From Oscillospiraceae bacterium (GTDB lineage Bacteria > Bacillota > Clostridia > Oscillospirales > Ruminococcaceae), in contig JAGAJN010000012.1 in assembly GCA_017828975.1 (NCBI GenBank), positions 1-64,000 on the forward strand: a stretch of DNA of 64,000 nucleotides. Direction: 5' to 3'. Shown here in pieces: positions 12,376 to 51,219 of this stretch (positions within the stretch are counted from its first letter, which is position 1; each line of letters starts with the position of its first letter). A program made the translations under genes and the position numbers. The notes beneath the pieces are model-generated. The model made no database searches. It saw only the letters and a list, made by a program, of their open reading frames with translations, and was not told the origin of the DNA.

Positions 12376-12466
12376 TATTTCGGGAAAAATTAACAAAAGC
12401 GTCACACTATATTTGGTTAAGTGGTTGTGATGCTGTGACATACAAGATAAATAAAGATAACATACA

Positions 12467-25144: not shown

Positions 25145-26185
25145 ATGAGCAAAAATGTTACTATGCGTGATATTGCAGATAAGCTTGGGATAACAGCTGC
25201 CGCAGTTTCAAAAGCATTTACGGGAAACGGAAGTATCAGCGACGAAATGCGGAACAAGATCAAGCGCACAGCCGCCGAAATGGGTTATCAATACGAAGAA
25301 AACACACACAAGAAAAAGGTTTACAGCAATAATGTTGGCATAATAGTTGCAGAGCGGTATATTTCCGATAACTCGTTTTACTTCAAATTTATCCGAGGCA
25401 TTTCAACGGCACTCCAAAGGCAGGGGAACTATGCGTTCTTCCATACGCTCACGCCTGTCAACGAGCAGAAAAATATCCTTCCCGATATTTTCTCCACACA
25501 AAGAGTTGACGGCATAATAATTCTCGGTCAGATCTCCGACGAGTACACAAAAGCTGTGCTAAAAACGGGCATACCCGTGATATTCCTGGATTTTTACAAT
25601 GAGCTTACCTCTAACAGCTGCATAGTCTGCGACGGCTTTTATGCCACTTATGAGCTTACAAACTATCTTATCCGCAACGGACACAAAAAGATCGCTTTTG
25701 TGGGGAATATCCATTCGACCGGCAGTATTCAGGACAGGTATCTCGGCTATGCGAAATCGCTTATCGAGCACAATATCCCGCTCACAGACCGCTACTGTAT
25801 CAGCGACCGAAGCACGGAGGACGGCAAATTTATCCAAATCGAACTGCCCATAGTAATGCCGACCGCCTTTGTCTGCAACTGTGACGAAACCGCCTGCACT
25901 CTTATAAAGCTGCTCAACGAAAATGGTTACAGAGTCCCCGATGATATATCGGTGACGGGCTTTGACAATTCCGTTTACAGCAGCATAAGCGTCCCGAAGA
26001 TAACTACCATCGAGGTCAACACCGAACAAATGGCATTCGTAGCGGTAGAATCCTTGCTTACGAAGATAAAGACACCTTCTCAGGTCACGGGAATGGTACA
26101 GATAAAGGGCAAAATTGTTTACAAGGATTCCGTAAAAGCTATTGAAAGCGGCGAAAACACAAATACAAAAAATACTAATTTCTAA
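25145..26185 (+). CDS. LacI-family transcriptional repressor
   Basis: A 346-residue sugar-responsive regulator. The helix-turn-helix is at the N-terminus (MRDIADKLGITAAAVSKAF) with a hinge region to about residue 60. The rest is a periplasmic-binding-protein-like effector domain (VDGIIILGQ, NGHKKIAFVGN, PDDISVTGFDNS). It is divergent from the damaged sugar importer and shares a spacer full of AACCGG palindromes, so it probably represses that unit and itself. The start has GGAGGC just upstream. Its last codons and stop (NTNF, TAA) lie inside MITE copy B, so the original C-terminus has been replaced by a few element-encoded residues. The effector fold looks complete before that point. Confidence 0.9.
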   Translation: MSKNVTMRDIADKLGITAAAVSKAFTGNGSISDEMRNKIKRTAAEMGYQYEENTHKKKVYSNNVGIIVAERYISDNSFYFKFIRGISTALQRQGNYAFFHTLTPVNEQKNILPDIFSTQRVDGIIILGQISDEYTKAVLKTGIPVIFLDFYNELTSNSCIVCDGFYATYELTNYLIRNGHKKIAFVGNIHSTGSIQDRYLGYAKSLIEHNIPLTDRYCISDRSTEDGKFIQIELPIVMPTAFVCNCDETACTLIKLLNENGYRVPDDISVTGFDNSVYSSISVPKITTIEVNTEQMAFVAVESLLTKIKTPSQVTGMVQIKGKIVYKDSVKAIESGENTNTKNTNF

Positions 26186-42984: not shown

Positions 42985-43002
42985 CGCTTACCTGTTATTA
43001 TA

Positions 43003-43098
43003 CTAATAACCAATTAAAAAGTGAATAAAAAATCAAGCAAAAACTTGCGTATATGGTTTTTGTGCAGATTTTTTATCTATACTTTTATTGGTTATTAG
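43003..43098. mobile_element. MITE-like element, copy C
   Basis: A 96-bp near-palindrome beginning CTAATAACCAAT and ending ATTGGTTATTAG, flanked by TA. The core AAAAACTTGCGTATATGG is identical to copy A in the same orientation. It ends two bases before the stop codon of the TROVE-like gene on the minus strand and 18 bp after the EAL terminator. Confidence 0.82.
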
Positions 43099-43100
43099 TA

Positions 43101-44576
43101 TTAGGCAGCCTTTATGGACTTATATCTGTCGGAGGAAAGAATGTCGTTCATTATCTTCAAGGGGGACATTTCGCCCGATCTCACCATATCAAATATGGCG
43201 GGAGAAGCACCCGACACCAGTGCAGCACCCGTATTGGTAAGCCTTACGGGGACGCAGCCCGAACGGCTGTTGACGTTCCAGAAGATTATATCGGGCAGCT
43301 TGTATCCGTAACGGGCGAACCTTCGCTTCATTGCAGAGAACAGGGTCAGGCTGTTTCCTCCCTCTGCGCAGATGTCAAACTCCATATCGGAGATTATGTA
43401 CATTCTCGAAGGGATCTCAGAGGGTGCAAGCTTGTTGTCAACGGCTGTTTTGAGTATCAGGTCAAAGGTGGCTTCAATGTCGGTGTTTGCGCACTCGTCG
43501 AAGGAAGCGCAGTAGCGGGCTTTTTCGGTAATGTCCTTTCCCTTGACCTCCACAAGTCGGGGGTGCTTGGAGAAGGTGATGAAGTGTCCGCCGAATGCAC
43601 CCTTGTTGTGCTCTGCGAAGTAAATGCCGAGGGAAATTGCGGCGTCTATGGGACGTATGCCGCCGTTTGCCGACCAGGTCATTGACCCCGAGCCGTCCAC
43701 AACTGCAATAGCGTTTGCATTCTCCTCGCCGTCACCGCAGGAGGTAAGGGAGTTCCAGGTGGCGTCGAGGGAAGTACGCTCATCGGGGGTGGGCATGACC
43801 CCCAGCGTCCTGCGGATAACCTCGTAGGGGTAGAGGGTGGAGGCGTTCAGCTTTGCTTCTCCACGCTGAACGGCGCCGAGAAATTCTGTGTAACGCTCCT
43901 TGTCGTTTCGGAGAAATGCCAGCCTGTACTTGAACATTGCTCCCGAGGTCTGCTTTGAGTAGTCAAAGCTGTAATCGGAAACACGCAGGCGGTTTTCGAT
44001 GATGTCGGTGTACTTTCTCAGCGCAGAAAGTGTGCGGCGGTAGTTACGCTCGGACATTTTCAGCTTTCTGCAAAGCATTCTGCCCATGCGGACGGTTTCC
44101 GCAGAAGATGCGTTTACGGAAGGCAGCCACTTTGCCAGCAGGGAAACCGGCTTGCCCTCGGACATTGCCGCAGTGTCGGCGTCAAGGCGTTCCTTTATGA
44201 CCGCAACGGCATCGTCGGCGCAAACTGTGTTAAGAAGGGCGCAGAGGTCGTCGTATCTGCCGTATTCGGCAATGTTTTCTATGTTCGCGCGGACAGATTC
44301 CGGGGCAATTCCTGCCAGAGTTTTTATTGCAATGCGGAAGAATCTGCGCTCGCCCAGACCGCCCCTGACGTCCCTTGCGAAGAAGACTATCTTCATTGCC
44401 TTGTCGGGGTCCTCCACATACGCACGGACAACCGCTGTGGCAATGGTGTTCTCATCGGCGTTGCGGAATGCGCCTGCTTTGAAGAACAAATCAAGGCAGT
44501 CGGAGCCCGATGTGGAATAGGTCACGGCACCGTTTTCGGTGTATGTATTGGGGGTATTTTTAATAGCATTAAGCAT
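43101..44576 (-). CDS. TROVE/Ro60-like RNA-binding protein (DUF2828 type) with VWA domain
   Basis: A 491-residue cytoplasmic protein. Residues about 15-290 form helical repeats like the Ro60 ring (TYTENGAVTYSTSGSDCLDL, AMKIVFFARDVRGGLGERRF, IAEYGRYDDLCALL). The C-terminal part is a VWA domain with MIDAS motif VVDGSGSM, plus YIISDMEFD. Ro60 proteins bind misfolded RNAs and Y RNAs. I start it at 44576 because AAAGGA lies nine bases upstream; a longer frame runs back into the non-coding RNA region. It lies downstream of rtcB on the same strand, separated only by a structured non-coding stretch. This is the arrangement of bacterial RNA-repair operons, in which Y RNAs lie next to rsr and rtcB. Confidence 0.8.
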   Translation of the reverse strand: MLNAIKNTPNTYTENGAVTYSTSGSDCLDLFFKAGAFRNADENTIATAVVRAYVEDPDKAMKIVFFARDVRGGLGERRFFRIAIKTLAGIAPESVRANIENIAEYGRYDDLCALLNTVCADDAVAVIKERLDADTAAMSEGKPVSLLAKWLPSVNASSAETVRMGRMLCRKLKMSERNYRRTLSALRKYTDIIENRLRVSDYSFDYSKQTSGAMFKYRLAFLRNDKERYTEFLGAVQRGEAKLNASTLYPYEVIRRTLGVMPTPDERTSLDATWNSLTSCGDGEENANAIAVVDGSGSMTWSANGGIRPIDAAISLGIYFAEHNKGAFGGHFITFSKHPRLVEVKGKDITEKARYCASFDECANTDIEATFDLILKTAVDNKLAPSEIPSRMYIISDMEFDICAEGGNSLTLFSAMKRRFARYGYKLPDIIFWNVNSRSGCVPVRLTNTGAALVSGASPAIFDMVRSGEMSPLKIMNDILSSDRYKSIKAA

Positions 44577-44610
44577 TGAAATCATTCCTTTCTTCGGTTT
44601 GAAACGGATA

Positions 44611-44673
44611 CCCACTCGGCTCGTAATAGGCTTCGAAGCCATTCAAAAAAATGTTTGCTGTACGAGCCGTGGG
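44611..44673 (-). ncRNA. Hairpin RNA unit G, tRNA-mimic-like
   Basis: On the minus strand CGGCTCGTA pairs with TACGAGCCG over 9 bp (44617-44669, 53 nt). The motif CAGCA follows directly after the 5' stem. The inside ends in GGCTTCGAAGCC, which has a T-loop-like TTCGA. CCCA/TGGG pairing may extend the stem outward. No RNA class could be confirmed by eye alone. Confidence 0.5.
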
Positions 44674-44678
44674 GCTTC

Positions 44679-44731
44679 AAGACACGCCCTCGAGGATTTG
44701 CGGTCCTCAGCACGATTGCTGTGCGTGTCTT
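44679..44731 (-). ncRNA. Hairpin RNA unit F, cloverleaf-like
   Basis: On the minus strand AAGACACGC pairs with GCGTGTCTT, a perfect 9-bp closing stem of a 53-nt unit. Inside are two small hairpins, CAGCA/TGCTG and GAGGA/TCCTC with a 7-nt loop, giving a three-way junction. ACAGCA comes right after the 5' stem, as in the neighbouring units. Confidence 0.5.
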
Positions 44732-44742
44732 ACTTATCCTTC

Positions 44743-44806
44743 AAGGTGCGATAAAAAATATTAAGCAGCCAATTTAAACCGGCTGAAATGCTGTCGTTTC
44801 GGCAGC
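44743..44806 (-). ncRNA. Degenerate hairpin unit E
   Basis: It contains the shared ACAGCA motif and two hairpins (GCTG...CAGC at 44790-44806 and CAGCC...GGCTG at 44766-44785), but I find no 9-bp closing stem. Its minus-strand 3' GCACCTT (44743-44749) can pair with AAGGTGC of unit C, 150 nt away. Confidence 0.3.
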
Positions 44807-44811
44807 GGAAT

Positions 44812-44865
44812 ACACGGCTCTATTATTTGACTTGACAGGTCGGGAAATTGCTGTGTGAGCCATAC
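44812..44865 (-). ncRNA. Hairpin RNA unit D
   Basis: On the minus strand GTATGGCTC pairs with GAGCCGTGT over 9 bp including G-U pairs, closing a 54-nt unit. ACAGCA follows the 5' stem after two bases. Inside, GAC and GTC close a 7-nt loop. The wobble pairs preserve pairing while the stem sequence differs from units F and G. Confidence 0.45.
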
Positions 44866-44872
44866 GCTATCC

Positions 44873-44930
44873 CATAAATCATTTTTTATTGCTGTTAGCA
44901 CCTTAAAAGGGTCAACGGAATGGATTTATG
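44873..44930 (-). ncRNA. Hairpin RNA unit C
   Basis: On the minus strand CATAAATC pairs with GATTTATG (8 bp, 58 nt). Inside is CCTTTTAAGG, similar to the small arm of the tRNA mimic at 45170, and the ACAGCA motif, which is not directly next to this stem. Confidence 0.4.
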
Positions 44931-44954
44931 CAACAAGGCACGTCACTAAAATTT

Positions 44955-45004
44955 TTCGTTAAATAATAAAGGGTGAAAAATCTGCTGTCTGTGCCTTTAA
45001 CGAA
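44955..45004 (-). ncRNA. Hairpin RNA unit B
   Basis: On the minus strand TTCGTTAAA pairs with TTTAACGAA (9 bp, 50 nt). ACAGCA lies eight bases after the 5' stem. The loop region is AT-rich. Confidence 0.45.
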
Positions 45005-45169
45005 TAAAATCCGTCCTCCGAGGGAAAAGCACCGCACCGAATACTGCCGCCCGCATTTCAGCGTCAATTATGCGGCTTTTAGATTGAATTGGCTGCCCGA
45101 AATTTTTCGGACGGCGGGGCATTTCCGTTCGGGATATTGAAATCATTCGTTTGCATTTTGAGATTAAAA
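45005..45169 (-). other. Non-coding spacer between hairpin unit B and the tRNA mimic
   Basis: No open frame is convincing here. Small hairpins are visible (CCGCAT at 45051 with ATGCGG at 45070; CCGAAA with TTTCGG near 45100), so it may be part of the same structured transcript, but it lacks the CAGCA-plus-stem pattern. Confidence 0.4.
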
Positions 45170-45233
45170 CAGGTGCTTTTTGGGATTCGAACCCACCTTG
45201 AAAAAGGCTGCCAACTACTGCTGTACGCACCTG
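45170..45233 (-). ncRNA. tRNA-mimic RNA between rtcB and the TROVE-like gene
   Basis: A 64-nt element on the minus strand folds like a shortened tRNA. CAGGTGC pairs with GCACCTG as a 7-bp acceptor stem. A D-loop-like AGTAGTTGG follows CAGC. A mini-arm CCTT-TTTC-AAGG stands in place of the anticodon arm. The T-arm TGGG-TTCGAAT-CCCA has the canonical T-loop. It is too short and lacks an anticodon stem, so it is not a translating tRNA. Bacterial Y RNAs of the YrlA type are known to carry such a tRNA-like module next to Ro60 homologues, so this is my preferred reading. Confidence 0.75.
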
Positions 45234-45235
45234 AC

Positions 45236-45340
45236 ACGGCTCAGTTTTTTATCCGGCGCTCTGCGTGAGCTAATACTGTCAGATAGTACAAGGGAGTTTG
45301 ACCCTTCCTCCGGGACCTCAATATTTGCTGCCTGAGCCGT
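45236..45340 (-). ncRNA. Y-RNA-like hairpin directly after rtcB
   Basis: On the minus strand ACGGCTCAG (45340-45332) pairs with CTGAGCCGT (45244-45236), a perfect 9-bp closing stem of a 105-nt element. The interior has AGGGTCAAACTCCCT and AGCTCACGCAGAGC hairpins and starts with GCAGCA. It lies only 14 bp after the rtcB stop and 2 bp before the tRNA mimic, so the two may be domains of one RNA. Confidence 0.55.
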
Positions 45341-45354
45341 TCTATGTATAGGCG

Positions 45355-46581
45355 TTACCCTTTGACAACGCCCACTGTAAAGAGCTTTTTGATAGGTTCT
45401 GCAAGGTCACGCTGATTTGCCATTACCTCGTCAATGTCCTTGTATGCGAAGCGGGATTCCTCTGCAACGTCGGATTTCTTGTGCTTTCCGAGGACGACAT
45501 TCAGCGATTTCAGGTCGTTGATGACCGTGTCCACCGCAAAATTCTGCACCGCCGCAGTTCTGGAAAATCTGCGTCCTGCGCCGTGAGAGGAGGACATAAA
45601 GCTGTTGGGGTCGCCCTTTCCTCTGACAATGTAGCTGTATGAGCCCATCGCCCCGGGGATAATGGACAGCTCGCCGTCCCGTGCGCTTATGGCACCCTTT
45701 CGATGCACCCAGACGTCCTCGTCAAAGTGATTTTCAAGGGCGGCATAGTTGTGGTGGCAGTTTATCTCGGAGGAATATTCGGGGACGATACCCGTGTATT
45801 TCTCCACATATCTTGCGAAAATCTCCTTGACCTTTGCAAGCATTGCCGCACGGTTTTCGTAAGCGAAATCCATGGAAAGCTGCATCCAGTCTAAGTACCG
45901 TCTGCCCTCGTCGGAATCCGCAGGCAGGAAGGGAAGCCGCCATTCTGCGGGGACAGCGCTGTACCATCTCTCGTTTAACTCCTTTGCGATATTGTTGAAA
46001 TATTCGCAGACACGGTAGCCGAAATTTCTGCTGCCCGAGTGGAGCATTATGGTACAAAGCCCGCTTTCGTCCTCCTGCAATTCGATGAAATGGTTGCCGC
46101 CGCCCAGCGTTCCTATCTGGAAATAGCCGTCGGAAATATTCTCGGCAAGAGCGGTGTCGGTTTCATATTTGGAAAGCTCCTCCTTTGCCCTGTCAAGGAC
46201 GTTAGAGGGTTGAGCAGTCTTGTAATGGTTGAAGCCCGTGGGGATATTTCGGAGAATATCGCCCACAATTGCCTGAAGCAGAGTGCCGTTTCCCGTAACG
46301 GTTTCACGGAGGAGGCTGACGGGGACATTTGTCTGAACAAAGCCCATTCCGCAGCCGATGTCAACGCCTACCGCATTGGGGATAACAGCATTTTTGCAGG
46401 CAATAACGCCGCCTATGGGCATTCCCTTTCCCGTGTGCGTATCGGGCATAAGAGCGACCCATTTGTGAATAAAGGGGAGCTGCGAAAGGTGCTTGGCTTG
46501 TTCAAGACAGCTGTCCTCAATTGCATCTCTTTCTGTCCATATCTTTATAGGTTTTGAGTTCTCATCGCTGTACACGAACAT
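45355..46581 (-). CDS. rtcB: RNA-splicing/repair ligase RtcB
   Basis: A 408-residue ligase that joins RNA 2',3'-cyclic phosphate or 3'-phosphate ends to 5'-hydroxyl ends using GTP and manganese. Conserved segments include ALMPDTHTGKGMPIGGVIA, VGVDIGCGMGF, LGGGNHFIEL, HSGSRNFG, INCHHNYA and SSSHGAGRRFSR, which together supply the metal ligands and the His that is guanylylated. Length is normal. RBS AAAGGCGG precedes the ATG. No RtcA cyclase is adjacent. Downstream on the same strand lie the structured RNAs and the Ro60-like gene. A CCCGATTCGGG palindrome (46642-46652) upstream may be a regulatory site. Confidence 0.96.
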   Translation of the reverse strand: MFVYSDENSKPIKIWTERDAIEDSCLEQAKHLSQLPFIHKWVALMPDTHTGKGMPIGGVIACKNAVIPNAVGVDIGCGMGFVQTNVPVSLLRETVTGNGTLLQAIVGDILRNIPTGFNHYKTAQPSNVLDRAKEELSKYETDTALAENISDGYFQIGTLGGGNHFIELQEDESGLCTIMLHSGSRNFGYRVCEYFNNIAKELNERWYSAVPAEWRLPFLPADSDEGRRYLDWMQLSMDFAYENRAAMLAKVKEIFARYVEKYTGIVPEYSSEINCHHNYAALENHFDEDVWVHRKGAISARDGELSIIPGAMGSYSYIVRGKGDPNSFMSSSHGAGRRFSRTAAVQNFAVDTVINDLKSLNVVLGKHKKSDVAEESRFAYKDIDEVMANQRDLAEPIKKLFTVGVVKG

Positions 46582-48790: not shown

Positions 48791-50041
48791 ATGAGCGGAT
48801 TTTCCGAGCTGATAAAAAGCTTTGATAAAACACGTGATTATGTACGTGACTTTTTCATCTACGGCTTTAAGGTGCGAAACGAATTTGACAGAAAAAGCGC
48901 CCGCACCTATGACGACGAAAAGCGCCGTGTGGAAAGCTGGCTGGGCGATTTCCTCCGCTATGACAGCAGCGAAAGGGGAAAGCAGGTTTCTATCTCCGTA
49001 GACAGCGGACGTGTCCCCGAAAATCCGCTTTACAAGGCGTTTTACTCAAAAAGCTTTACGGACAATGACATTCGGCTGCATTTCCTTTTGATGGACATTC
49101 TCGCTGCCGGAGAAGCGCTTACTGTCAAGGAGTTGACAAACCGTCTTGACGAGGAATACGACGCTTTTTTCGACGAACAGACCGTCCGCAACAAGCTTAA
49201 AGAGTATGTTTCCGAGGGGATTTTTATCTCCGAAAAACGTGGAAAGACCGACTATTTTTCACTTTCCCCCGACACGTCGGACAGCTTTTTCGGCGAATAC
49301 GAGGGCCTGGACGATGCTGTGAAATTCTTCTCGGAAGCGTCGGAATTCGGTGTTGCGGGCAACAGTATGCTGAAAACGGCAGGGCTGAAAAACGACATTT
49401 TCCTGATGAAGCACAACTACATCGTCCATGCTCTGGAGGACGAGATCCTGCTGAAAATAACCGAACTCATAGAAAAAAAGCATTACATAACCGCCGTAAA
49501 TTTCGGCAAGCAGAACGCCGCTTCGGAGAATTACGGTATTCCGCTGAAAATCTACACGTCATCGCAGACGGGCAGGCGGTATCTGGTGATGTATCTGCCC
49601 TTATACAAGCGGCTGAATTCCTTTCGGCTGGATTTTATCAAGTCTGTCCGTGACGGCGGGGAGTGTCCCGATTATGACAAATATGCGGAATTTCTGGGCA
49701 AAAATGAGGGGAAATGCTTTGGTGTGTCCTTCGGAAACAGACAGGAATTTGGCAGTATGGAGGCTTTGCGGATAACATTTTCCGCAGACGAGGAACGGGA
49801 GAAATTCATCATCGACCGCCTGAATCGTGAAAAACGCTGCTGCACCGTGGAAAAGGTGGGCGACAATCTTTTTATGCTGACCGCCGAGGTGTTCGACGTG
49901 AATGAAATGATGCATTGGGTGAAAAGCTTTATCGGCAGGATAGTCCGCATTGAGGGCGGAAATGAGGAAATTATCAGCCGTTTTTACCGCGATATTTCCC
50001 GTATGCACCGTATTTATTGCAGGGAGGGGGAAAGATTATGA
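48791..50041 (+). CDS. WYL-domain protein with internal winged helix, first of a pair
   Basis: A 416-residue protein. Residues about 90-160 contain a winged helix-like segment (LTVKELTNRLDEEYDAFFDE, TVRNKLKEYVSEGIFISEKRG), after an N-terminal region of about 85 residues. The WYL-like domain follows (about 215-290; ITAVNFG, GIPLKIYTSSQTGRRYLVMY), then a C-terminal extension of the WCX type. WYL proteins sense nucleic acids or nucleotides and regulate transcription. RBS AAAGGCGG sits before the ATG. It overlaps the next WYL gene by four bases. Target genes are unknown; the nearby TetR gene or the rtcB operon are possibilities by location only. Confidence 0.75.
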   Translation: MSGFSELIKSFDKTRDYVRDFFIYGFKVRNEFDRKSARTYDDEKRRVESWLGDFLRYDSSERGKQVSISVDSGRVPENPLYKAFYSKSFTDNDIRLHFLLMDILAAGEALTVKELTNRLDEEYDAFFDEQTVRNKLKEYVSEGIFISEKRGKTDYFSLSPDTSDSFFGEYEGLDDAVKFFSEASEFGVAGNSMLKTAGLKNDIFLMKHNYIVHALEDEILLKITELIEKKHYITAVNFGKQNAASENYGIPLKIYTSSQTGRRYLVMYLPLYKRLNSFRLDFIKSVRDGGECPDYDKYAEFLGKNEGKCFGVSFGNRQEFGSMEALRITFSADEEREKFIIDRLNREKRCCTVEKVGDNLFMLTAEVFDVNEMMHWVKSFIGRIVRIEGGNEEIISRFYRDISRMHRIYCREGERL

Positions 50042-51063
50042 ACATTTTCAGCGAGATTTACGGCGCATATTTTCGGGTTGTGGAGCGGCTTCTTTCCCTT
50101 GAAAAATTTGATAAAAGCGAGATACCGGACGCCATTGAACAGGAGGCTTTCCGTGATTCTGCGCTGTTTATCGAGCCGAAGCTTCTGCCTAAAAAGGCTG
50201 ACAGCTCCGATTGGGGACTGCTTTTGCGGAATGATGACGGCAGCTTTTCGCCCGTGACGAGAAATCAACCTCCGAAAATCGTCACGGAACTGCAAAAACG
50301 CTGGCTGAAAGCAAAGCTGTCCGACCCGAGATTTGCGCTGTTTTTCGGGGACGATACATTGGAGCGATTGACAAAGCGTCTGGAAAATGTGAAGCCGCTG
50401 TACGACCCGAATTGTTTCCGCTGCTTTGACGTTTACGCTGACGGTGATGATTATTCCGACGAGAATTACAGGAAAAATTTTCGGACGGTGCTGGTTGCGG
50501 TCAAGAAAAGGGAGATACTGAAAATCGACTTTGTTTCGGGAAAAAACGAGCCGATGTTCGGTCAGTATCTGCCCATAAAAATCGAGTATTCCCGAAAAAA
50601 CGACAAGTTCCGTGTGTTCTGCTATCGTATGCGCTGCGGACATTTTTCGGGGATAACACTGCTGAATATCGGCAGAATGACAAGCGTCAGGGCGACGGGG
50701 ATATGCTTTCCCGTTCCTCACGCCGACCTTGATGAAACCGACAGATTGTTCAGGGAACGCCGCTGTAAGGAGCCTGTTTTGGTGGAGGTCAGCAGCGAGC
50801 GCAACGGCATTGAGCGATTTATGATGGAGTTTGCGAGCTTTGAAAAGCAGACCGAGCTTGATATGTCTGCGGGGAAATGTATGGTTCGCATCTGGTACGA
50901 CAGTCAGGACGAAACGGAGCTGCTGATACGCCTGTTGGGGTTTGGACCTGTCCTCAGAATAATCGGTCCCGAGGATTTTCGGAAACAGGCGGCGGAGAGG
51001 GTGGAGAGGCAGTTTAAGCTGTTATTTTCCGATAATGAGGAAAATATTTCGGAAACCTCTTGA
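50038..51063 (+). CDS. WYL-domain protein, second of a pair
   Basis: A 341-residue protein with a WYL domain (about 150-240; EILKIDFVSGKNEPMFGQYL, PIKIEYSRKNDKFRVFCY) and a WCX-like C-terminus. The N-terminal 130 residues have no helix-turn-helix I can identify, unlike the upstream protein. The start 50038 overlaps the previous stop by four bases and has GGGAGGGGG directly before it; an upstream ATG at 50017 is rejected. The pair may act as a heteromeric regulator. It ends 32 bp before MITE copy D. Confidence 0.75.
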   Translation: MNIFSEIYGAYFRVVERLLSLEKFDKSEIPDAIEQEAFRDSALFIEPKLLPKKADSSDWGLLLRNDDGSFSPVTRNQPPKIVTELQKRWLKAKLSDPRFALFFGDDTLERLTKRLENVKPLYDPNCFRCFDVYADGDDYSDENYRKNFRTVLVAVKKREILKIDFVSGKNEPMFGQYLPIKIEYSRKNDKFRVFCYRMRCGHFSGITLLNIGRMTSVRATGICFPVPHADLDETDRLFRERRCKEPVLVEVSSERNGIERFMMEFASFEKQTELDMSAGKCMVRIWYDSQDETELLIRLLGFGPVLRIIGPEDFRKQAAERVERQFKLLFSDNEENISETS

Positions 51064-51095
51064 CTTTGACACGGTGTCATACCTTATAATTAATA

Positions 51096-51192
51096 CTAAT
51101 AACCAATAAAAGTGTAGACAAAAAATCTGCGTAAAAACCATATACGCAAGCTTTTGTACGGATTTTTTGTCAACTTTATGATAGGAAATTAG
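51096..51192. mobile_element. MITE-like element, copy D
   Basis: A 97-bp near-palindrome beginning CTAATAACCAAT and ending with GGAAATTAG, flanked by TA. The core AAAACCATATACGCAAGC is the reverse complement of that in copies A and C. It lies between the WYL gene and the gap terminator, and its T-run makes it a possible terminator for the WYL transcript. Confidence 0.82.
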
Positions 51193-51219
51193 TATAAAAA
51201 CCAATTCAGCCACAAAAAA

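Follow-up and report, generated by a model that had tools for sequence, protein, structure and literature searches.

The 778-bp gap between the gene for the RNA ligase RtcB and that for a Ro60-like protein, in the 64,000-nucleotide stretch of an Oscillospiraceae bacterium analysed here (the window; contig C39 of a 2.57-Mb genome), holds seven RNA units in tandem on the minus strand. The units are real, conserved, strand-specific and structured, and they are RNAs of the Y type that fall outside the Rfam YrlA family by score. Our reading, with a probability of roughly three in four (0.77), is that the gap encodes a row of small Y-type RNAs that serve the adjoining Ro60-like ring protein. The protein probably uses the whole set of these RNAs, some of which are tRNA-shaped.

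A first-pass annotation of this DNA had placed tandem, selected RNA structures of Y RNA type at 44611 to 45345, having counted CAGCA eight times and ACAGCA seven times on the minus strand of the gap, far above chance. Both counts are right, the units recognised here span 44615-45341, and the structural proposal is supported by the covariation, the strand-specific enrichment beside the Ro60-like gene and the tRNA-like modules described below. ACAGCA is absent from the plus strand of the gap, and in 3000 dinucleotide shuffles it occurred 0.21 times on average and at most three times. Units with a stem framed on the motif (framed units) numbered six, versus a mean of 0.016 and a maximum of one in 1500 shuffles. 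The eighth CAGCA is that of unit A, which reads GCAGCA in the window and ACAGCA in a sister genome, and the ACAGCA at 44789-44794 belongs to no unit. A protein-coding gap was set aside, because single-base indels between sister genomes speak against coding.

Unit A (45235-45341) is closed by the helix ACGGCTC/GAGCCGT, followed by GCAGCA, and has the build of a YrlA-like tRNA mimic: its insert contains, in order, a T-arm-like hairpin (AAGGG/CCCTT, with a 7-nt loop TCAAACT that differs from the canonical T-loop), an acceptor-like hairpin and a D-arm-like hairpin (GCTC/GAGC; GTTC/GAAC in the sister genome). Its minimum free energy was -34.5 (z -2.56), and it was missed by Rfam and by R1, a covariance model that we built without window or phage sequence. 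In the other six units the motif is ACAGCA. Unit B (45169-45234; helix CAGGTGC/GCACCTG) differs from its sister copy at 1 of 66 positions and carries the T-loop TTCGAAT that the first-pass annotation had noticed, within a canonical T-arm; its folding z was -2.43, and R1 gave it 15.1 bits (E 0.29), compared with 15.5 bits for a stray match at 12466. Unit D (44934-44998; AAGGCAC/GTGCCTT) has a predicted hairpin insert (R1 40.0 bits, E 5.1e-7; z -3.43). The insert of unit E (44742-44905; TAAGGTGC/GCACCTTG) encloses unit F; its closing strands are kept in the sister genome, and R1 missed it, as expected given the long insert. Unit F (44813-44864; ATGGCTC/GAGCCGT) has a short insert with CTGTCAA (R1 35.6 bits, E 5.3e-6), and in the sister genome a T-to-C change in its 5' arm turns a T-G pair into C-G. 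Unit G (44678-44732; TAAGACACGC/GCGTGTCTTG) has a hairpin with a 7-nt loop (R1 28.7 bits, E 2.1e-4; z -3.27), and its motif is ACAGCC in the sister genome. Unit H (44615-44671; CGGCTCGTA/TACGAGCCG), with the hairpin GGCTTCGAAGCC, is the nearest to the Ro60-like gene (R1 19.1 bits, E 0.034; z -4.28). The closing stems of A, F, G and H are those given in the first-pass annotation; its stem for D, TTCGTTAAA/TTTAACGAA, overlaps the conserved one, AAAGGCAC/GTGCCTTG, and is not common to the relatives. The period of roughly 60-80 bp proposed there for units G to B did not hold: the spacing is irregular, with unit starts 107, 236, 93, 41, 132 and 61 bases apart. The stretch 44999-45168 is free of units and holds predicted hairpins only. 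A 13-mer, GAATGATTTCAAT (minus strand), occurs at 45136-45148 within it and again at 44575-44587, at the start codon of the Ro60-like gene; shuffles yielded 0.13 matches with at most one mismatch.

When sites were aligned on ACAGCA, a fixed register appeared: of the ten bases ahead of the motif, the fourth was G at 340 of 415 distinct sites. Within the commonest register, the 162 sites that had already passed a stem filter all had G there. The helix comprises pairs 2 to 8, and an A-rich strand faces ACAGCA. Circularity was avoided by choosing the 3' arm for each pair from the remaining pairs and only then scoring that pair. In this leave-one-out test, 84-90% of sites were paired at pairs 2-8, as against 42% at pairs 1 and 10, 52% at pair 9 and 37-41% at random positions. 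Joint changes of identity were found at pair 3 (A-U/C-G), pair 5 (G-C/A-U/U-A), pair 6 (C-G/U-A), pair 7 (A-U/U-A/G-C) and pair 8 (C-G/G-C). A MAFFT alignment of 48 units (A3), retained by a diversity filter from 92 short, stem-called units of loci L023-L102, had 99.7% paired cells and a covariation score of 0.601, whereas shuffles scored 0.212 and slid partners no more than 0.123. Because these units were selected by their stems, the leave-one-out test is the stronger of the two. An earlier stem test, which searched over a wide range, discriminated poorly (68% of random positions passed it as well) and gave way to the framed and leave-one-out tests. The first-pass annotation had made its proposal depend on covariation in the closing stems of homologous loci, and this covariation is strong. 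A conserved stem pairs the 5' and 3' ends of each unit, which may match the ends of the transcript.

Of 247 genomes of the family, 22 encode the Ro60-like protein, and genome contigs gave 151 confirmed stretches with it, 80 of which are among the 102 loci compared; the relatives named by protein are mostly Ruminococcus, with other Oscillospiraceae. RtcB of more than 60% identity lies directly upstream in 42 of the 102 loci, across a gap of 378-1320 bp (39 of these 42 arrays are distinct), and in the remaining loci rtcB is absent, of a more distant kind or outside the stretch covered. The 42 gaps contain ACAGCA 230 times, versus 7.3 expected from base composition, and it is the most enriched of the hexamers seen at least 40 times. 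Under a strict call (ACAGCA, G-C at pair 4, at least six pairs) these arrays hold two to seven units, most often four; a loose call that also admits NCAGCA and one mismatch gives 4-10. Across 96 distinct loci, the density of framed units was 2.47 per kb on the sense strand of the 1.6 kb that precede the Ro60-like gene, 0.050 elsewhere in sense and 0.044 in antisense. At least one upstream sense unit was present in 93 of the 96 loci, and at least two in 86.

In a model-based search of relatives, of the kind that the first-pass annotation had recommended, R1 matched 19 of 244 family genomes at E <= 0.01, 18 of them among the 22 that bear the Ro60-like protein. Four protein-bearing genomes were missing from the listed matches. 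A search confined to the locus gave units in three of them, one weakly (19.3 bits); in the remaining one, G107, just the C-terminal part of the gene is present. A match in G128 (E 0.0056) is probably false, no Ro60-like gene being present in the 5.7 kb of contig examined. In a sample of the class, DUF2828 occurred in 15 of 391 genomes, with at least one framed unit upstream, within the stretch covered, in all 15; among these, in G256 and G190, a unit precedes a divergent RtcB gene that abuts the Ro60-like gene. The constant partner is therefore the Ro60-like operon and not rtcB as such, which amends the context described in the first-pass annotation: within the stretches covered, some arrays adjoin an rtcB gene and others do not. 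A Ro60-type gene beside the units is the position looked for in Y RNAs.

The predicted partner of the units, a bacterial relative of the human autoantigen Ro60, shows the Ro60 fold over most of its chain (residues 7-470), with a HEAT-repeat ring and a vWA domain. D294, S296, S298, T365 and D397, which we take to be the residues of the metal ion-dependent adhesion site of the vWA domain, are invariant in 43 Ro60-like sequences. Its Pfam matches are DUF2828 and DUF7788 alone; the TROVE profile (PF05731) gave none at E up to 0.001, and TROVE had no match in its own genome at E 1e-10.

The inserts between the closing strands vary. A detector found a T-arm in 94 of 441 unit inserts, versus 2.4% of shuffled inserts. 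Arrays adjoining rtcB nearly all had at least one such unit (41 of 42, or 38 of 39 when only distinct arrays are counted), as against just 19 of 60 other loci. A crude pattern found both T- and D-arms in 13 of the 441 calls, and some inserts are ordered T-arm, acceptor hairpin, D-arm. Fifteen tRNA-like units were aligned (A5), hand-picked as 12 of 17 distinct rows plus L005, window unit A and unit A of L074; two near-duplicates (L026, L214) and three unclear rows (L200, L210, L230) were dropped. Its members include phage units of Bacillus, Salmonella (FelixO1), Mycobacterium (Wilder) and Enterococcus (Ben), among others. The T stem was paired in 98.7%, the acceptor in 92%, the D stem in 100% and the closing helix in 85.6%, the last value being lowered because the L005 row lacks the 5' arm and the L074 row is short at its 3' end; double changes occurred at 19 of 21 pairs. 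By eye, the anticodon arm is absent from all 15 modules. A 2014 study by Chen is said to have found at least one Y RNA with a tRNA-like domain per species. The T- and D-arm sequences in some units could suggest degenerate tRNA genes, or the stems could be chance hairpins, an explanation to which we give almost no weight: ARAGORN called no tRNA gene, either in the window or at 10 related loci, the T-arm stands ahead of the D-arm within a closed stem, unlike the order in a broken tRNA gene, and chance hairpins are contradicted by the covariation and the strand bias.

Among the other inserts some types recur, one of them being a hairpin whose loop reads CTGYCA. By eye, the arrays of L064, L075 and L047 share a recurring non-tRNA insert with GGRCYCA...ACCATC...GGRCTGRGT-like motifs, possibly a separate effector class. 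The last unit of the L024 array (181 nt) contains a long inverted repeat (TAATACTAAACACC...GGTGTTTAGTATA, by eye), apparently a mobile element inserted between the T-arm and the closing strand.

Homologues of the Ro60-like protein were also found in 681 of 50,697 phage records (tblastn). Six records were scanned. Units precede the gene in Listeria LP-048, Bacillus PJN02 and Enterococcus Ben and follow it in FelixO1 and Wilder, and an unannotated faecal scaffold (L271) has two of them about 1.5 kb upstream. R1 backs most of these units, weakly those of FelixO1 (22.4 bits, E 0.006) and Wilder (17.8 bits, E 0.07). In 70 of 80 viral loci, near-duplicates omitted, its 88 matches at E <= 0.05 all have the same orientation as the gene, and a framed unit lies near the gene in 46 of 71 distinct viral loci. 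Phage tRNA genes surround the units in L270 and L273 and in L273 partly alternate with them. Y RNAs have been identified in mycobacteriophages (available part of PMC12282133, citing Chen 2014).

An isolated unit also occurs away from the gene, at G000:C25:26437-26494 (L182:4438-4495, minus) and G111:C40:6234-6289 (L183:3735-3790). It lies just past a glutamate-dehydrogenase-type gene (Pfam ELFV dehydrogenase) on the opposite strand, is kept in two species of the genus, is followed by a strong terminator-like hairpin (by eye) and is possibly a stand-alone Y RNA gene.

These positions bear on the reading that the Ro60-like mRNA carries the units in its 5' leader as binding sites for free protein, which would thereby repress its own translation or stabilise the message. 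The 93 of 96 loci with upstream sense units, and the 38 nt between unit H and the start codon used, are what such a leader would give. However, units lie downstream of the gene in FelixO1 and Wilder; four tandem R1 matches in L186 (G190; the weakest 15.6 bits, E 0.17) precede RtcB and not the Ro60-like gene; the isolated unit, with its terminator-like hairpin, sits on another contig; and a mere binding site needs no tRNA-like insert. A general leader role was set aside because units lie downstream of the gene or away from it, and we consider autoregulation unlikely. The downstream phage units and the isolated conserved unit favour action in trans over a leader switch.

A second possibility, which we regard as improbable, is that tRNA-like units titrate anticodon nucleases or modification enzymes, or are themselves cut and religated by RtcB. 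The tRNA-like modules, the adjoining RtcB and the phage tRNA genes that surround units in L270 and L273 would suit such decoys or substrates, and the available part of PMC7790460 suggests competitive inhibition by YrlA. T-arms, however, occur in just those 94 of 441 unit calls, the modules lack an anticodon arm, and the same part of PMC7790460 reports that YrlA fragments were not found and infers that YrlA is no substrate of the nuclease. Still less probable, to the point of being hardly credible, is a system like type III toxin-antitoxin modules, in which tandem RNA repeats upstream would neutralise the activity of the protein. Tandem RNA units do stand 5' of a single protein gene, and the Ro-like gp53 of mycobacteriophage LeBron is listed as cytotoxic when overexpressed (PMC13148394, in the part available); the partner here, however, has a Ro60 fold, and the units vary widely in sequence and length and can lie downstream.

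Several results weigh against the reading of the gap as a Y RNA array. The gathering score of the YrlA model (RF02553, 69 bits) was not reached in the window, in 14 loci or in further loci, the best value being 47.8 bits, and the gap itself gave no YrlA match up to E 10; Rfam at curated thresholds had no match across the whole window. Scores of 46.1 bits for one tRNA-like unit and 47.8 bits for a stretch of an Enterococcus phage stand below the cut-off, and genomes at large yield values of as much as 41.2 bits with this model, probably on tandem tRNA genes. YrlA scores alone are weak for this reason, also at the canonical locus described below, and the claim of tRNA mimicry rests on the paired modules within closed units. 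A YrlA search of 199 genomes, with 133 matching and none above the cut-off, was uninformative. Beside the helix the units depart from the YrlA consensus, with ACAGCA in place of AUGCU. R1 recovered only four of the seven window units at E <= 0.05 and matched only 43 of the 70 viral loci, 25 of the 71 distinct viral loci have no framed unit near the gene, and unit F alone does not fold significantly (z -1.27). Transcription in Listeria phage CKA15 was rejected as evidence for expression of the units. Three highly transcribed noncoding regions lie near its Rsr homologue, and its authors suggested Y RNAs (PMC12282133, in the part available). The most transcribed region (OR088597.1 26,236-26,727; L270:4460-5011), annotated as the small open reading frames CKA15_059-061, matched ROOL with 90 bits (E 4e-17), just below the curated 99.1 bits, and so the transcription is no proof for the units. 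To judge from a blastn match, the Y units of CKA15 are at about 25,296-25,553.

Two canonical TROVE loci were examined. At L279, a YrlA match of 39.9 bits lies directly upstream of the TROVE gene, together with a divergent gene pair, one of WYL/WCX type. A product of the window (48791-50041) is related to this protein (BLASTP 4e-10), and so the array sits where the Y RNA of L279 sits. The second locus, L280, gave no YrlA match, and R1 found no unit at either. The handle is thus, so far, a feature of the DUF2828 clade.

In the mechanism that we propose, each unit would be one RNA module, in which the 7-bp helix, ACAGCA and the opposite A-rich strand form the handle recognised by the Ro60-like protein, and the variable insert would act as effector, built in some units as a tRNA mimic with T-arm, acceptor hairpin and D-arm, in others as just a T-arm or as a small recurring hairpin. 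Transcription of the array may run in the same sense as the Ro60-like gene, probably together with the rtcB/Ro60-like operon, and the transcript would be cleaved into single units or small groups of them. The RNAs would tether or gate the ring and bring partners such as tRNA-binding proteins, nucleases such as PNPase and perhaps RtcB, in the service of RNA quality control and repair, and the divergent pair of WYL-type regulators would control the operon. A constant handle with a variable effector is the most likely arrangement by analogy with Salmonella rsr-yrlBA-rtcBA and Deinococcus Rsr-Y RNA-PNPase. More tentatively, and at somewhat less than even odds, the system may be modular, one ring being programmed with different partners by a repertoire of Y RNAs kept as an array, with an effector for each and a handle common to Clostridia and to phages of hosts in several phyla.

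The Ro60-like gene occupies 43101-44576 on the minus strand; its start was set by alignment with homologues, and the open frame from an earlier ATG would begin at 44642. The rtcB gene lies at 45355-46581, also on the minus strand (PF01139, E 1.8e-108). Divergent from the array operon are the plus-strand genes 48791-50041, for a probable WYL-type regulator (WYL E 0.096, below the cut-off; homologue in 54 of 80 related loci), and 50017-51063, for a second regulator-like protein (WCX E 0.013, below the cut-off; 51 of 80 loci). This pair (48791-51063) probably regulates the rtcB/Ro60-like operon. An imperfect palindrome of about 100 nt (TACTAATAACCAAT...ATTGGTTATTAGTA), resembling a miniature inverted-repeat transposable element, occurs in two copies that flank the cassette, at 43000-43101, directly past the Ro60-like gene, and at about 51093-51200, soon past the second regulator gene.

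The roles of Y RNAs and their choice of partners are a long-open question. The arrays offer natural sets of RNAs with an unchanging handle and a changing effector, so that the roles of the two may be separated by experiment. The signature of a 7-bp helix and ACAGCA detects Y-type RNAs not called by the Rfam YrlA model, and an uncharacterised protein clade is linked to Ro60.

Among known systems, the closest is that of YrlA and YrlB, the latter being the second Y RNA of the rsr-yrlBA-rtcBA operon. As here, these RNAs adjoin genes for a Ro60-fold protein and RtcB, and their ends are paired in a stem; the Rfam helix of YrlA (acggCga/ucGccgu) resembles that of the units, and its effector has the same order of T-arm, acceptor and D-arm. 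YrlA and YrlB are, however, one or two RNAs, compared with two to seven strict (4-10 loose) units per rtcB-adjacent array; most unit inserts have no full tRNA module, and AUGCU and the Rfam threshold set YrlA apart as described. The first-pass annotation had named single Y RNAs beside rsr and rtcB as known and had not recognised such an array, which needs amendment, as the Salmonella operon is a known tandem pair (available part of PMC7790460). A literature search found no description of larger Y RNA arrays, the main Y RNA papers being outside its scope. Phage Ro-like proteins with Y RNAs are similar in having stem-ACAGCA units beside homologous genes and differ in the tRNA genes lying partly between the units (L273) and in the downstream position in FelixO1 and Wilder. 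Type III toxin-antitoxin systems likewise have tandem RNA units (ToxI) beside a protein gene; their protein is the nuclease ToxN, whereas here the partner has the Ro60 fold, without that of ToxN, and the units are heterogeneous. In the Deinococcus radiodurans RYPER complex (Rsr-Y RNA-PNPase; PMC8394870, in the part available), a Ro60-like ring has a partner RNA that tethers an effector; the protein of the window is of the DUF2828/DUF7788 and not the TROVE type by its Pfam matches.
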